A DNA stretch of 64,000 nt from Struthio camelus (taxonomy: Eukaryota; Chordata; Aves; Struthioniformes; Struthionidae): positions 4,648,001-4,712,000 of the forward strand of contig NC_090967.1 of assembly GCF_040807025.1 (NCBI RefSeq), read 5' to 3'. This document shows, in pieces, positions 7,617 to 18,450 of the stretch. The notes under the pieces are model-generated. The model ran no database searches, was not told the DNA's origin, and saw nothing but the letters and a program-made list of their open reading frames with translations. How positions within the stretch are numbered: position 1 is the stretch's first letter; each line of letters starts with the position of its first letter. Position numbers and translations under genes: made by a program.

Positions 7617-7764
7617 CCAGCACCATCCCCTGGGCTCTGCTGCCTGCCCCGAGATACACACATTCAGAACAGTTTCCCAGATATTCCTGACCAGCACCAT
7701 CCCCTGGGCTCTGCTGCCTGCCCCGAGATACACACATTCAGAACAGTTTCCCAGATATTCCTGA
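7617..7764. repeat. Perfect 74-bp tandem duplication
   Basis: Bases 7617-7690 are repeated immediately at 7691-7764 with no mismatch that I can see. The unit starts CCAGCACCATCCCCTGGG and ends CCCAGATATTCCTGA. It lies 3' of TICAM1 and outside its coding region. The identity of the copies points to a recent duplication. Confidence 0.95.
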
Positions 7765-7985
7765 CTGTCCCTTTCCCATTTCTACAAGAAAGAACTGGAG
7801 AAACACAGATGAATTAATTAAAATGTATTCATAAAATCTTCAAGTAGCCCTCAAGAGTCAAGAAAATAGTTTTTGCAGTTACTTGAAAATAAGCACAAGG
7901 AAAACAGTCTCAGGAGACTGCAACCTCTCTTGTCCAACAGAAAAGAGGTCATTTTCTCCTCTGCTCCAAGAAAGTGGTACCTTGT

Positions 7986-8098: not shown

Positions 8099-10324
8099 TC
8101 AAGCCTTCTCCCTGGTTTCTTCTTCACTGTCCTCTTGACCTGATGGGGCAGTTTGCACATGCATCATGTTGTGGTTCCCAATCTGTACCATTCGAGCATG
8201 CTGAATGATGAGGTTCTGGGCAGCTCCTGGACCTTGCATCATATTGGGGTGGCCTGATGGGAGATAAAATGTTTGGGAAGGAGAGGGACCCAGCTGAGCA
8301 GGTATGGCGTGATCAGCGGAGGGAGGTGGGTATGTGGCAGGAGGGACAGGCATAGGAAAATGGCACTGTTGGGGTGACTGGTGAGGCATGAGCTGCTCCA
8401 AAAGCTGCTGTAAGCTTCCCAGATTTGGCTGTGGTGCTGACAAAGGCATCTGGGGAACGGAGCCGAGGTTCAGATCAGCTAAGTTCTTCAGTGTTTGACA
8501 GTGATCCTGATACAGCTGCAGTTTCCTTTTCTGCTCCTGGATTTGCTGTATCTGTTTCCACATGGCTTTCAGCTCACTGATCTTGCTGGGTGTAAAGGTG
8601 TTCTTTACTGTCTTGGAGAACACAGGGGAGTTCTCATCCAAGGACACCAGCCCGCTCAGTAGGGCGGGAATCTCCCTCCTCTCCAAGGGGTTCTCTCTGG
8701 GAACAAAAGGGATGACTGAGTTGTGCTTGGATGGTCGCAGGATGGACTCCATCAGAGCTGAGTTTGTTTGAAACATGCACAGCTGGCACAGGAAGTTCTT
8801 GGTCAGCAAAAGGATGGTGAAAGCAGAGTTTTCCATAGCATCTTGGAAGCAAAACAGCTGGCCACGTCCAGCAGTGAGGAAGTCCTCGCAGAATGTGGCA
8901 CCATTGGGAACCCCCATGCTTTCCAGCAGCTCCTTGACCCGACAGGCAATGTCCACATCTTCACTAGCATGCAGGACAACAAAAGTGAAGAACTTTCTCT
9001 CTTCATCTGGCTCTGATGTGGATGCTGCTTCTGCATTTTGGACAGGAGGAGGGTAGGCTGGAGAGGAGGATGAATGGAAGGAAGAGGGATATGCTGAGTT
9101 GGGAGGAACTGCCTGAAGAGGAGGGGGAAGGGCTGGGGAGAAGGAAGGTGTATGAGGAGGAAGGGAACAGGCTGAAGTAGGAGATGTAGTATGGGAAGAT
9201 GTACCTGCTGGAATATCCTCTGCAGACGTGTGGATGGGACCAGTGTGCGCTGTGGCTCTTGAATCAGGAAGACCTGTAGGTAAGTCCTCTTGCTTTTGGG
9301 CTGTGCCTTCTTTTGGTGCCTGAGGTTCTGCTGTCACTGTGCTGGAAACATCACTACTTTCGACAGGTTGGTTCACAGCACTCGGTGTAGGAAGCTGAAT
9401 TTCAGGAATAGGGAGAAATGGATGACAAGAACTGGTCTGCAGAACCTCCATCTTTGGTCTGGGGACATGGGCGGTTGTGCCCTGCATGGGATGTGAATTG
9501 GTGCTGTTGGCCCAGCTTGTTTCCTGCAGGCCGTGGCTCTCGCTCTCCCTGGCAGGCTCTCCAGCACAGCTCATAGGCTCTGCACACAGCTGGCTCAGCT
9601 GGGGGACATGGTTACAGTGAGGAGGCTGGGTGTGAAAAACGGCTGTTGGCGATTCACTGATCTCAAAGTGACTGATGAAAGAAGCTGGGCTCCCCGAGGA
9701 GCGCAAGGTCCGTGGGCCTGAAAGGTCCGACACATTTCCGATCTGCACTGGGGAACTTCGTGCCACACGGTTTGGGCTGGCAGTCTGGAGAAATCCCGGG
9801 TCCGATCTCATCATCTGGAACCTGCCACCTGAACCCATAAAGCTGATAGCAGCACCACATTTTTCCTGAGCCTCAGCCAGGATGCTCTTCAGTGGTTCCC
9901 GCTGAGGGTTCCCGCTAGTGTCACAGGCCTTGATGGCAGTCTGGTAGGCTCTGACCATAGCTTCCCGACTGCACAGTTTTTCGTCTACCAGCAGCGAGTA
10001 GATCTGTGCCAGAAGCGCTATGGCATCTGCATCCAGCTGGGGGGGCTGCAAATCCTCACCGTCTTCCTGTACTCTCGCAGTGCCCAGTCTGGTCCTGTGG
10101 ATATATAGGGCTGCCTGGTCGTTCCTCAAAGTATCCAGACAAATTCTTGCATCTGCTTCTTGCCCCAAAGTAAGCAGGACCATGGCTTGCAATAATTTGC
10201 TGCTGGGCTTAGATATCAAGTGCTTCAGTTTATGTTTGAGGTTAAGGAGTTTATCTCCTGGGATCTGGGAGAGAATATTAAAAATGTCTTCAAAGCTTGG
10301 CTGGACCTCAGCACTCTGTGCCAT
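8099..10324 (-). CDS. TICAM1: TICAM1/TRIF, TIR- and RHIM-domain adaptor of TLR3 signalling
   Basis: TRIF links TLR3 to TBK1/IRF3 (type I interferon), to TRAF6/NF-kB and to RIPK-mediated death. I chose ATG 10324-10322, giving 741 residues starting MAQSAEVQPSFEDIF. The frame is open 53 codons further upstream, but that stretch lacks family resemblance, and a good acceptor (TTCTTCAG, exon from 10352) lies between. The start matches the human N-terminal helical domain (GDKLLNLKHKLKHL, MVLLTLGQEADARI). A proline/serine-rich linker follows. The TIR domain covers about residues 444-595 (FTFVVLHASEDVDIACRVKE, GVPNGATFCEDF). The C-terminal RHIM is at about 705-722, with core VQIG in IIQHARMVQIGNHNMM. 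PVESSD (about 320) fits the TRAF6 pattern P-x-E-x-x-acidic. The pLxIS-like site reads HFEIS (Ser about 223). The coding region is a single exon, as in mammals. Confidence 0.95.
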   Translation of the reverse strand: MAQSAEVQPSFEDIFNILSQIPGDKLLNLKHKLKHLISKPSSKLLQAMVLLTLGQEADARICLDTLRNDQAALYIHRTRLGTARVQEDGEDLQPPQLDADAIALLAQIYSLLVDEKLCSREAMVRAYQTAIKACDTSGNPQREPLKSILAEAQEKCGAAISFMGSGGRFQMMRSDPGFLQTASPNRVARSSPVQIGNVSDLSGPRTLRSSGSPASFISHFEISESPTAVFHTQPPHCNHVPQLSQLCAEPMSCAGEPARESESHGLQETSWANSTNSHPMQGTTAHVPRPKMEVLQTSSCHPFLPIPEIQLPTPSAVNQPVESSDVSSTVTAEPQAPKEGTAQKQEDLPTGLPDSRATAHTGPIHTSAEDIPAGTSSHTTSPTSACSLPPHTPSFSPALPPPLQAVPPNSAYPSSFHSSSSPAYPPPVQNAEAASTSEPDEERKFFTFVVLHASEDVDIACRVKELLESMGVPNGATFCEDFLTAGRGQLFCFQDAMENSAFTILLLTKNFLCQLCMFQTNSALMESILRPSKHNSVIPFVPRENPLERREIPALLSGLVSLDENSPVFSKTVKNTFTPSKISELKAMWKQIQQIQEQKRKLQLYQDHCQTLKNLADLNLGSVPQMPLSAPQPNLGSLQQLLEQLMPHQSPQQCHFPMPVPPATYPPPSADHAIPAQLGPSPSQTFYLPSGHPNMMQGPGAAQNLIIQHARMVQIGNHNMMHVQTAPSGQEDSEEETREKA

Positions 10325-10352
10325 CTCATCAGCTGCTTCTCCAGACAATGCG

Positions 10353-11600
10353 CTGAAGAAGCATGGATGGAAAAAGCATATTACAGTCTCTAGAGCAAAG
10401 GTTTGTTTCCTTATGGTGCTCTCTGAAGCCCTGGTCGTACGTACTTTTAAGTACTGCACAAGGAATAGGTCCTTGTTGCTCACGGGCTCATCTCAGAGTC
10501 AGGGACAGTCTCTGCCTTGAAGAACTGGCCAGATGAACCTGTGAGTAGAAAAAAGGGCAGTGTTCAGAAATAGTGAGGCAGGGAGCTTGGGAGACTCCTC
10601 GAAAGGTTTGTAGATAAATATTTTTGCATCTACTTGGTACTTGCATATCCCGAGGCTTGTCTGAAACGTGCTCCACACATTATCCCAAGTCTATTATTAG
10701 GCAAACAGCAAGTCCTTCACGTTCGTTATATGTCAACTAAACTGTTTTAAAATAATTGCTAAACTAATACTATATTTAGGTAAATCCAAGTGTCCAGCTG
10801 GTTCATATCAACAGTCCATCTCCACCAGTGGCCTCTGTTGGGCAGGGGCTGATTGCAGGGGCCTCACAGCATCCTTGTAATGAGCAGTTAAGGAATAAAG
10901 CCCCGCTTAGAGGAAGCCTCCTGCCGATTACAGGCTCCGCGTCTTTTCAAATCGCTCGTACCCTGCCAGGAAGGTTTGTATTCCTTTCGCGTCCACTTTC
11001 AAGCTGTCTAATGTAATTGTGGACATACGCGTTATGGTCATATGCATCTAATCCCTGAACCCAGCTAAGCCTTTGCACTCACCAAAGCCAGCTGAACGGA
11101 GTTAAATTAGCCAGCAGCACTTGTCCGTAGAGCGAGGGAGGTCTGGGCCTCCGGCAGGTCTGTGGCAGGCAGGCGAGAAGTTGCTGAAGATGCACTGGCA
11201 GCGACTGATCCGTTTGAAAAAATCTTTCTCTATTTAAAGGAAAGCCAGAAAAAAATGTGTTTAAAAATAGCTCTCAACAACCAAACTTCTGGGGAAAGTT
11301 TGTAATTTCAAATTGTTTTTCTATCTCATAAAAATCCTCTAATTGCTTAATGAATGAGCTCAAGCTGAGCCTGAGGAAGTTGTTGTCTTTCTATGAAAAC
11401 TTCTGATTCAGTGAAACATCTAAGGAAGGAAAGGAAGGGAAAAAAAAAAAAGAAAAAAGGAAGTCCAGGCATTCAAAAACAGTAGAGGAGACCTTTGACA
11501 CTTATTTATGTTCTACCCCTCTGTGAGTCAGCAAAACCTCCCACTACTCCCCTAACTCTCTGCTCCCTCTCGCTGGGCATCTTGCTCCAGAGCCTGCAGC
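10353..11600 (-). other. TICAM1: Probable TICAM1 5' intron
   Basis: An acceptor-like tract ending TTCTTCAG stands just before 10352, upstream of the TICAM1 start. The stretch upstream of it on the minus strand shows no coding frame of note. I interpret it as the intron between a non-coding first exon and the coding exon. A possible donor (TTTG then GTGAGTGC) is near 11080. Exon positions are not proven. Confidence 0.45.
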
Positions 11601-13776: not shown

Positions 13777-16700
13777 TCAGAGCTCCTCCTCTGGTGCATT
13801 AGTTACTATCTCCTCTGCAGGTTTTGTCACCTCTCCTGTGCATTTCTCTACCTTCTCCTCCAACCTGTCTAGCACTTTAGACCCTTCCCCCAGGATCCTG
13901 TTTGCCCCCTTTGATTCCTTGGGGGCTTCAGCTACCTCCTTTGGTGACATACCCTTTTCCAAAGCAGGTGATTTCATATCAGTCATCATACTGCATTTCT
14001 TCTCCTTTCTGCTGTCTTGTGATACTTTGGCTGATGCCCTGAAAGGGCCCACAAGCCAGTTTAGAGGGGCGTTGAGAGTTACATATTCTAGCAAGTCATC
14101 TAGGGATCTTTGGGCTTCCCTCACACAGTCCTGGCTCTGGGTCAAGGTGCTGCCAGAGAGGTCCTGGAAGGACTTAGCACTGGAAAAAGAAGTGTGGAGC
14201 TTCTGGATGCTTTGAGTGGCTTGATGTACAGTTTCTTGGATGTTGCTGGGGAGGCCTTGAATGCTGGCTTTCAGATTCTCATATGCAGGTTGTAGCTGCT
14301 GGGTGATGATATGCAGCATAGCTAGGGTCCGTGACTCTACCTGCTAGGAAAGAATACAGCTCAGTTACTGTAGCAGATGAGATGCCCGCTATCCACAAAA
14401 GGTCTGATTACACCCTTCTAGGGATACCTCTGGTTGGGAGGCAGTTTTAATTTGGTGTCCCTTGGGTTGGGTCAGGCTCCAGTCTAGCCATAGCTGATGG
14501 AGCTTCTCCTGCCCGTCCAGAAGCTTCTGGCCAACCTCGTCTTTCACACGCTCTATCTGATGGAAAGAGATGAGGAACAGTTACATTGCAAGCACATACA
14601 AAGCAGCACAAGCGCTCCTGTCTGCTAAGCACTGGAGTCATGTTATAAAGAAGCAGCTTCCAGAATCACATTCTGCAGTGTTACCTGTCAGGGAGGGACT
14701 CAAAGGGACATGCAGCAGAAAACATACCTTAGGTGCAGAATGGAGGAAGCACCTCCATCTGGGTGCTAGCAGGGGGAAAGAAGACTCTGCGGAGTGGGAT
14801 AGAAAAGAAAAAGGGTGTTTGTACCAGGTTTATTGCTAGTTGCAGCTGGGAGAGAGTATCCCGCGTGCTTTGCTTAACACGCTGCAGTTTGTTCAGGGAG
14901 TGCCGGTAGGCTCGGAGGCGGACTTTGTTAGAGAGGGAGCCCAGACGCACAAAGTAACTCCGCTGCTGTTTCTGCTCCTCCACAGAGGCCATATCAAATC
15001 CCTCAACAGCAGTGGCAAGTTGACCTAGAGGGTACAGAGATCCAGCTGTCAACAGATGTCTCTTCTCTACCCTGTGCCCCATCCCCTTTGGCCCTGGAGC
15101 CATCAGGGCAAAGCCCAGCTGCCTCTACCCTCACTCCTTTGTCTCCATGCTCTGCTCTCCCAGCTGTGAGGGGGAAAAGGTAAGATTTGCCCATTGTGAA
15201 ACATGGGAGGAAGCTAAATCTCGCTGTATAAGTGGTAGGGGTTGGCAGTTGTTCAGAGATTACAACTAGGCCAGTCCCAGCTTGAAGGGCTCTCTTCAGA
15301 TAAGCAGACTTGACAAATAGGTTGAAGCATGTACCCAGTTGTTGTTTGCCTTGAGGCTGATAGGCAAACCAAGGAGTAGCTAGCACGTGCTTGAACTCTG
15401 TCCTATACCACGTAGCACGTCAGTGGTGACAGAAAGCCAACTGGGTGATATTCAGAGCTACCTATCTGCTTCAAAAGATGACTCCTGCAGTGTCAGGTGC
15501 TCTCTAATCATGTGGAAAGTGATTTGCAGTTACAGCTACCAGCTAAGCATTTTCTTACCCAGCTCCTCCTCTGTCATGGGGAGGTAGTGATCCACCAGAT
15601 CTTCTGATATATCCAGGACAGATTCCACACCACCTGCCACTGCTTGGCCCATTGCCTTGGCTTTACTTATGCTGTTGGTCACCATGAAATTAGTGAGCTC
15701 CACCCCCTCCTGGATAGCCTCTCTGCTGTGCTCCAGGGCTGTATTCATTTTGCTAGTTATGGTGCCATATGCAGCATCCAGAGCTGTATTGACTGTAGAA
15801 GTGACCATTGATTTAGTCTTCTCAACACCATCCTGAACAGCCTCTTTGGTTAGGTCTACTGCTTCAGTCACTTTGTTGGTTACGAGATCCTTTGCACCCT
15901 GGGCAGCCCCTACAGCCGCAGTAACAGTAGAAGCGACTGCGGCCTTTGTTAGTCCAACGCTGTCCTCCACAATGTTTTTAGTGAGGTCCACTGCTTCAGT
16001 CACCTTGTTAGTCACAAGATCCTTCGCACCCTGAGCGGCCTCCACAGCACTGACGATAGTAGAAGCAGCTGCTGACCTGGTCAGTCCAATGCTGTCCTCC
16101 ACAATGTGTTTACTGAGGTCCACTGCCTCAGTCACCCTGTTAGTCACGAGCTCCTTTGCACCCTGAGCAGCCTCCATAGCACTGGTGACAGTGGAGGTGA
16201 CCATTGACCTGGTCAGTTTAACACTGTCCCCAACAACATTTTTAGTGAGGTCCACCGCTTCAGTCACTTTATCAGCCATTGCTTCTTTTGCCTCACAGGC
16301 AGCATCCATAGCAGATGTCACTTTGGCAGAAACCAGCTGCTTGGTGTCTGAGATGACCTACAACAAGGTGAGGCAGAGAAAGATGATGCATTTTTCCAGA
16401 ATAGGTTTCCCTCCCTCAGGGAGCTTTTCACATGGCTATGCTGTGCCTGCACTCTTGTGGGAAAGGTGAGGAAATCAGTACATCTGTATTCACATGGAAA
16501 TCTATTTCCACACGCTGAAGGCAGAGCCTCGGCTTTCATCAGCTAGCAATGCCTTCTCTAGCTCAGGCAGCTGTAGCCCATATCCAGGAACTGACCTGAC
16601 AAAGCAGCACTGCCCAAGTTAGTTTCCCCATATACTTCTGTACCCATAACAGTTATATCAAGCAAGAAGAGTGAGCCATGGCTTCCCTGGAAAAAGCCTT

Positions 16701-18450
16701 TGCTTTACCTTATCTGCTGGCTGTTGAAGAAAAGGCAAGTTCTCCTCCAGCTGATCCAGTCCCTTGCAGGCATATTCATTTACAAGTGCAACTAGACAGA
16801 AGGACAGGTACCAGGTTAGTCCCTCTACTCGAGTTTGGAGGCTTTTTTGATCCTACAATGGCCAATCCAGGATGAGCTCATGAGAGCAAATAAAGTAGAT
16901 CATTGTTTGGGGTACGGGTGGTGGTCAGGGTCTCGCTAAATAGTCTCTTCGTTTTGCCTTCCCAGCCTTCTAGCAATTGAGAGCACATCGCTCCAGCCAG
17001 AGCGTGGTACTTGTTTCCAGTGGATAGGGAAGCGGATTAATGGCTTTTTACTGTCTTGGGATGAGACAAACTGAGCAAAAGGCAGAATAAACACTGATAC
17101 TACCTGATGGGATATTCACAACTTGAAGCGATAGAGGCAGAGCAGGGAGCTTTTGCCTCTCCACTTAAAGAAGCCACAGATGAGGTCAAACTTGGCTTCT
17201 GCTAGTGACAATCCCTTATCCATCAAATTCAGTGGGCCTATGGAGTGGCTGGGAGCAGTGGAGGAGTCAGCAATACTACAAGTGTTGTAGGATGTGCTGT
17301 AGGAGATGTTACCCAGAAGGGGCATCACTTGCACCTTAACGAAGCAGGGGTATCATCTAAGCTCATGGTGGTTATCTAGGCTTTGTCACATAAGCCAAAA
17401 TAATGTGGGAATGACTTTGCAAGAGACATGGTTTTAAGAGGAGACTTCTAATGTCATTTAGAGGTAGTTTACTTGTTGAAGACTACATATGGCTAAGAGA
17501 AAAAAGTTGATTTTTTTCCTCTTCCTTCTTTCATGAGGAGTGAGAAGTTTACCTCATGGCATAGGACTGGTACCTGATCCTGTTACTCAGGGTGTTTGCT
17601 GAGCCTGGTCTATGTCACCAGGGCCTCAGAGGGCCTGTGAGGCTCCCTTCCCACCTATCCCCTCTGTGGGGAGAGGGGGGCGTCTCCAGCCTCTTCACTT
17701 ACTTTGCGGCTCAAGTTGGTTCAGAATGGGCTGTGCACCACCAACCACGCTGCCGACTGCGACAGCGGCCACAGTCTCGGCCACATTGCAGGCACTGTGG
17801 AGGCAAGGGTGCGTCTCCTTGGTGTAGTTGTAGGCAGATGAGACCAGGTTGAATGCAGAGTTCAGCAAGGGCAGGTTGGTCACCCTGCTAACAGCACTCT
17901 AAAAGAGAGAAATAAGTGATATTAGACACTCTGCCTCAAGTTGGTGAGCGAATGCAAACCATGTATAGATCCAGAAAGGTCCTAAGTGCTATCAAGTCCA
18001 TCTCCTCATCGAGCTCACAGTTGAAGGGTCTTGTCTTAAAACCATTAGCAATCAGTGGCAAGCCAGAATTAGAAGCTGGAGCTCTGTCACATCTGAGTCA
18101 TACAAGGCTTTAGTACCATCAAGCCCAGATTTGGAAATAGGACCTATACCAGCCAATGTTTCAGAATTATGTGCATTGCTTGAGCCAGCCCTGGAGTTCT
18201 CTTTCTTGAGCAAGAAAAGTCAGCCTCTGCATTAACTAAAGGTTTAGATTTAGTCATGGCTTCATATGGTTAATCTTTCCCCTGCTCCCAGCCTGGATTT
18301 GAGATGGTGACAGAAGTTAGTTTACCACTGTATCCGTTAGCAGGTAGTTTAACAGCTGCATGTTGGAGTACCAGCTGTCTTGGCACCTACCGCTTGCTGC
18401 TGTTCCTTAGCTTTTAGCGGATCATTTTTTGTGGTCTTTTCAGATGCCAT
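13777..18450 (-). CDS. PLIN3: PLIN3 (TIP47) lipid-droplet perilipin with expanded 11-mer repeats
   Basis: Perilipin-3 is a cytosolic PAT protein that coats nascent lipid droplets. Seven coding exons join in phase with GT/AG borders: 18450-18391, 17898-17703, 16791-16709, 16357-15559, 15024-14825, 14556-14428 and 14340-13777. They total 676 codons plus stop. The start is ATG 18450 ([12 protein letters not shown]). The PAT region (about 21-113) reads [20 protein letters not shown] and [15 protein letters not shown], close to human PLIN3. Exon 4 holds four 44-residue units (127-302) plus a degenerate fifth. The four-helix region follows: [35 protein letters not shown], and SIQGLPSN through NWLVGPF. 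About 87 further residues follow, where the human protein has about a dozen. PLIN2 and PLIN4 were considered; the C-terminal domain and synteny favour PLIN3. Confidence 0.92.
15559..16357 (-). repeat. PLIN3: PLIN3 repeat exon: four 132-bp tandem units
   Basis: This 799-bp exon encodes units in exact register at 16318-16187, 16186-16055, 16054-15923 and 15922-15791, with a degenerate 41-residue copy at 15790-15668. Each unit is 44 residues, that is four 11-mers, with the shared core [10 protein letters not shown] and [13 protein letters not shown]. Perilipin 11-mers form amphipathic helices that bind lipid-droplet surfaces. Units 2-4 share AAQGAK and are the most alike. In human PLIN3 the corresponding region is about one unit long, so I infer a tandem expansion. 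Confidence 0.93.

Follow-up and report, generated by a model that had tools for sequence, protein, structure and literature searches.

The closest described systems to the locus analysed here are the helices built of 11-residue repeats (11-mers) in human PLIN3 and PLIN4. The PLIN3 helix is 90 aa long (PMC5889406, Table 1); the PAT domain of the protein and its 11-mers have no ordered structure in solution and turn helical on membranes, and residues 114-204 alone are cytoplasmic in cells (PMC10238389). The helix of PLIN4, a protein without a PAT domain (PMC11413419), extends over 968 aa and carries about three basic and two acidic residues in each 33-mer (PMC5889406). According to PMC5342826 and PMC8064757, PLIN4 is known from mammals only. 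PLIN3 and the PLIN4 helix both prefer droplets under tension and seem to replace phospholipid (PMC11413419). The 11-mer helices of alpha-synuclein and the apolipoproteins are likewise 3-11 helices that fold on lipid (PMC5889406); they belong to other genes with other lipid preferences, and are likened to the present helix by helix type, homology aside.

Published work ties droplet binding by these helices to their length. PLIN4 fragments of 66 aa are cytosolic, those of 132 or 264 aa are found on a fraction of droplets and those of 660 aa on all (PMC5889406). On wild-type yeast droplets, 198 aa of PLIN4 bind and 132 aa do not (PMC8064757), and PLIN3 11-mer constructs give a length-dependent signal on triolein droplets (PMC10238389). 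The PLIN3 helix exchanges within seconds and a PLIN4 12-mer hardly at all (PMC8064757). Composition matters besides length, as the stability of PLIN4 hinges on polar residues of its own (PMC8064757) and a PLIN4 helix turned net negative becomes cytosolic unless it is also made more hydrophobic (PMC5889406). Among the titles and abstract openings of articles outside subscription journals and preprints, we found no report of tandem units in a non-mammalian PLIN3. The window, a stretch of 64,000 nucleotides of the ostrich genome, contains a PLIN3 gene whose helix reaches about 242 aa, nearly three times the 90 aa of human PLIN3.

The PLIN3 locus and the repeat array of exon 4

The perilipin gene lies on the minus strand from 18450 to 13777, and its spliced translation matches the Pfam Perilipin family (PF03036) at 1e-149, with 499.5 bits against a curated cut-off of 33. 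The first coding exon (18391-18450, 20 codons) was read from the sequence. Exon 2 (17703-17898) encodes the PAT region and carries a Perilipin match, and exon 3 (16709-16791) encodes the end of that region; exons 5 (14825-15024, again with a Perilipin match) and 6 (14428-14556) belong to the C-terminal domain. These four exons were each placed by an acceptor signal and a donor read from the sequence. The last coding exon (13777-14343), an open reading frame with the stop codon that matches the mouse PLIN3 structure 1szi, contains the rest of the C-terminal domain and a tail of 87 residues. The 11-mers reside in exon 4 (15559-16357), which is exactly 799 bp long (266 codons plus one base), is flanked by AG before and GT after, is open in frame across its 266 codons and matches Perilipin at 3.1e-31.

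The predicted C-terminal domain matches 1szi, the structure of mouse TIP47/PLIN3, at 5.1e-64, and the bird and mouse PLIN3 domains are 48.7% identical; 1szi is the sole strong PDB match, in a list that holds no other perilipin folds to compete with it. In a small tree (support 0.72), the window gene and mouse PLIN3 do not form a group that excludes bird PLIN2. The PAT region, the 11-mers and the C-terminal domain are all present in one gene, as is required of a PLIN3. The gene sits beside a FEM1-type gene (1-984, +), TICAM1 (8102-10492, -) and UHRF1 (from 33068, +), which we take to be the gene order around human PLIN3; among PDB entries FEM1C comes closest to the FEM1-type fragment, which may be FEM1A or FEM1C. 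Family match, structural match and neighbours together bear out the first-pass annotation in calling the gene PLIN3, and on this sequence evidence we assign it as the PLIN3 orthologue. It shares the PAT region, 11-mer helix, C-terminal domain and gene neighbours with human and mouse PLIN3, and differs from them in the length of its helix and in its C-terminal tail. The tail (13777-14040), which follows the conserved WLVGPF motif, is rich in lysine and glutamate; the chain of mouse 1szi stops 10 residues beyond the aligned part. Downstream of TICAM1, at 7617-7765, two identical 74-bp copies stand in tandem and may be either very recent or a small assembly duplication.

Tandem Repeats Finder placed an array at 15845-16267 (period 132, 3.2 copies, 79% matches, score 492), and a repeat search resolved four ungapped copies at 15794-16321, spaced 132, 132 and 132 bp apart, where three of the copies share 65-85% identity with the fourth, taken as reference. 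Each 132-bp unit encodes 44 aa, or four 11-mers. With unit borders set in one chosen phase, exon 4 opens with a leading half unit of 22 aa (16292-16357), which agrees with the 3' halves of U1-U4 at 29-36 of its 66 bases. There follow U1 (16160-16291), U2 (16028-16159) and U3 (15896-16027), all of them ungapped 132-bp repeat copies, then U4 (15764-15895), 44 aa as well, and finally the degenerate U5 (15632-15763), which fits U4 best once slipped by three residues (14 of 35 residues); all lie on the minus strand. The array first reported as four 44-aa units and a degenerate fifth, with four 11-mers in each, in an exon of 799 bp is thus real, and the span originally given to it (15668-16318, 651 bp, 4.9 units) covers it, missing the edges by no more than a few tens of bases. 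A continuation of the repeat into the intron was considered at the 5' exon edge and rejected, as only 17 of 66 bases match across that edge at a 132-bp shift.

Identity between residues 44 apart, over residues 1-235 of exon 4, is 0.53. In 5,000 shuffles that kept every residue in its own 11-mer phase, the mean was 0.20 and the maximum 0.30, so that none reached the observed value (0/5,000), indicating that the 44-residue unit is not a by-product of the 11-mers. At lag 33, the period of PLIN4, identity in exon 4 was no higher than expected, the observed value being reached in 4,755 of the 5,000 shuffles, and a 33-aa sub-period was rejected on this basis.

Properties of the exon 4 helix

Residues 1-198 of exon 4 keep one 11-aa register without a break, and a slip follows at U5; no proline occurs in residues 1-242. 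The hydrophobic moment calculated for residues 1-198 has its peak at the 3-11 angle (98.18 degrees), with 0.242 there and 0.047 at 100 degrees, and 2,000 shuffles gave a mean of 0.052 and a maximum of 0.165. A long continuous 3-11 amphipathic register, our working mark of a PLIN4-type helix, is therefore present over these 198 residues, whereas the helices of human PLIN1-3 are broken by short linkers (PMC8064757).

Counted as in the published table, hydrophobic residues make up 0.44 of the helix, large aromatic ones 0.008 and charged ones 0.23, compared with 0.37, 0.01 and 0.23 in human PLIN3 and 0.35, 0.002 and 0.15 in human PLIN4 (PMC5889406). It is PLIN3-like, including its charged fraction, and rather more hydrophobic. 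The net charge is -7 over 242 residues, with -1, -2, -1 and -2 in U1 to U4. Acidic residues gather on one side of the helix (R 0.83, 0/2,000 shuffles), and basic residues, which are less clearly clustered (R 0.39, 65/2,000 shuffles), lie at a different angle; this segregation recalls the uneven polar face of PLIN4 (PMC5889406). The 11-mers are not all alike: the third and fourth of U3 and the third of U2 are weakly amphipathic (moments 0.13-0.18), and the fourth 11-mer of every unit is oriented about 90 degrees off the others. An AlphaFold model of exon 4 alone, made from one sequence and given little weight (pLDDT 72, pTM 0.40), places helices at 2-129 and 134-258 with a break at 130-133.

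Origin and expected function of the array

On balance, we favour an explanation in which the 11-mer exon of PLIN3 was lengthened by in-frame tandem duplication, the resulting array being old and constrained and conferring a firmer, PLIN4-ward binding to droplets. One 132-bp module (44 aa, four 11-mers) would have been duplicated in frame, so that an exon with about one unit came to contain four good ones besides a half unit and a degenerate one. As the module consists of complete 11-mers, every copy would prolong a single continuous 3-11 amphipathic helix and leave the orientation of its face unchanged. The resulting helix of about 242 aa, in place of one of about 90 aa, would measure about 36 nm with the usual rise per residue. 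The region may be disordered in the cytosol and fold on new or tense droplets, where a longer helix would have more contact area, bind more firmly and for longer, and cover more bare oil per molecule; the protein would thereby be shifted from the fast exchange of human PLIN3 towards a PLIN4-like coat. Since 242 aa falls within the droplet-binding range of PLIN4 fragments, firmer and longer-lived binding is plausible by analogy with the published length-dependence. The net charge of -7, read with the published charge data, would speak partly against it, and the non-uniform face (the weak 11-mers, the offset of every fourth 11-mer and the AlphaFold break) counts against the explanation as a whole.

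Comparison within the genome bears on the direction of change. Exon 4 encodes 95 aa in PLIN2 (contig C41) and 86 and 81 aa in two PLIN3-like genes on contig C18, leaving space for one unit each, and the human helix is of similarly short length at 90 aa; these comparisons support an expansion relative to both the paralogues and human PLIN3. Exon 4 of the window gene without its four units would retain 90 residues, a count that takes in some residues beyond the helix. U4 shares 21 of 39 residues with PLIN2 and also with the plus-strand C18 gene, and U1-U3 share 12-16 of 39; the original unit is most plausibly U4, the closest to the single units of these two genes. A gain on the line leading to this genome appears the simpler reading than a loss in mammals.

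The six pairs among U1-U4 are 64-80% identical in DNA (20-36% differing) and 55-73% in protein. Their dS ranges from 0.51 to 1.71 (Nei-Gojobori), values that come from 44 codons per pair, with pairs that are not independent, and that conversion between copies may distort. The dN/dS comparison among units proposed in the first-pass annotation gave a pooled value of 0.26 for the six pairs (0.15-0.41 by bootstrap over 44 codon columns), as expected of constrained copies. Units so diverged suggest that the array is old and may be common to many birds; given the purifying selection as well, the array is probably a long-established trait of PLIN3 in many birds and not a recent event. The expansion claimed at first is therefore supported relative to human PLIN3 and to three paralogues in the same genome, but not as a recent or species-specific one. 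As a rough comparison, the lowest dS between units is about twice the Jukes-Cantor distance of 0.23 between the PLIN2 copies on contigs C40 and C41 (808 of 4,137 aligned columns differ, with gaps counted as columns and a stretch taken for a CR1 element left out). Since chromosomes evolve at different rates and gene conversion among copies is possible, we claim no date.

The same high dS would also fit an ancestral long array, in which the PLIN3 of early amniotes or tetrapods already had several units and was shortened in mammals, and the protein identity of 55-73% between units agrees with great age, given the 48.7% identity of the bird and mouse C-terminal domains. We nevertheless regard this as unlikely, if the most credible of the alternatives: the three paralogues have one unit, the 44-aa unit of PLIN2 and of the plus-strand C18 gene resembles U4 alone best, and a single gain is simpler than losses in several genes. 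Slightly less likely again is passive amplification by slippage or unequal crossing-over, with selection preventing each copy from doing harm and the number of copies without effect at the droplet. Whole 11-mers added to a tolerant disordered helix may be neutral, and unit number varies in human PLIN4 as well, where a disease family shows 31 to 40 units (PMC7360652); that expansion, however, is pathogenic rather than neutral, and the dN/dS of 0.26, the 198-residue register and the phased moment argue against mere tolerance, although they reflect constraint on the sequence and not on the number of units. An assembly artefact, with copies falsely duplicated or mis-joined, had been named at the outset as a way in which the array might fall; it is very improbable, since the units differ by 20-36% in DNA whereas false duplication would yield near-identical copies, and the frame stays open through all 266 codons.

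Tandem duplication of the PLIN3 module, as favoured here, gives a structure that shares several traits with PLIN4. Both helices are extended by tandem copies of whole 11-mers with the register unbroken within the array, contain few aromatic residues and have charges segregated on the polar face. In contrast, the window gene has a 44-aa unit instead of one of 33 aa, about 5 units instead of 29-31, and units that are 55-73% identical where those of PLIN4 are near-uniform; its units are not net positive, its helix is net negative, it retains the exon of the PAT region and it occupies another gene position. The early proposal that the array approaches PLIN4 is thus upheld for length and for the unbroken 11-aa register, and fails in that the helix is a quarter of 968 aa, has no 33-aa period, is net -7 and accompanies a PAT domain. 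The likeness is one of principle, a helix lengthened by duplicating whole 11-mers. That the gene is a bird counterpart of PLIN4 by descent would account for a long tandem 11-mer array inside a perilipin but is highly improbable in view of its PLIN3-type neighbours, its PAT region, its want of a 33-aa period and the mammals-only occurrence of PLIN4 given in PMC5342826.

More tentatively, birds, which are reported to lack PLIN4, may have arrived on their own at a perilipin coat with a long helix, through amplification of a 44-aa module in PLIN3, so that a PAT domain of the diacylglycerol-sensing kind and an oil-coating helix would be combined in one protein and the number of units would act as a selected length setting for binding; we hold this wider reading to be possible but doubtful. 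The gene would form a natural link from the short helix of PLIN3 to the giant one of PLIN4, in a lineage from which PLIN4 is reported absent, and would bear on how birds coat their fat droplets. The relation between helix length and droplet hold has so far been studied through cut-down PLIN4 and charge mutants, and an evolved, net negative series of 44-aa units would provide an independent test of length versus charge.

Other perilipin sequences in the genome

Among the best candidates scored in each search of the genome, the PF03036 profile gave 39 matches, all at the window and seven other perilipin places. The four units used as a protein query gave 6 matches, of which the window's own was the sole strong one; in PLIN2 and the plus-strand C18 gene the match extends over about one unit (E values of 1.5e-4 and 4.5e-4), and E is 1.7-4.8 for the remaining three. 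A 72-base repeat query returned 3 places, all inside the window. No second 11-mer array was found in the genome among the best candidates of these three queries. Outside it, in collections without vertebrate genomes, 9 stretches in viral contigs and 57 in other genome contigs matched the pattern, none of them confirmed as a relative.

The two PLIN3-like genes on C18 lie in opposite orientation at 3.02 Mb (-) and 3.036 Mb (+) and their C-terminal domains share 45.5% identity. The plus-strand gene may be decaying, as it has an in-frame TAG in exon 5. PLIN5 as such was not found in the genome perilipin search, neither C18 gene being clearly PLIN5-like. PLIN2 is located at 24.35 Mb of C41, and a diverged copy with stops at 10.34 Mb of C40. 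A stretch of 1,441 bp at 56.15 Mb of C40 is 99.65% identical to one at 75.69 Mb of C41, and the two contigs resemble a Z/W pair in which a large part still recombines. Two perilipin fragments are possible pseudogenes: one at 15.52 Mb of C41, which contains stops and matches only in the C-terminal and 11-mer regions, and one at 71.43 Mb of contig C1, which has a PAT-like exon.
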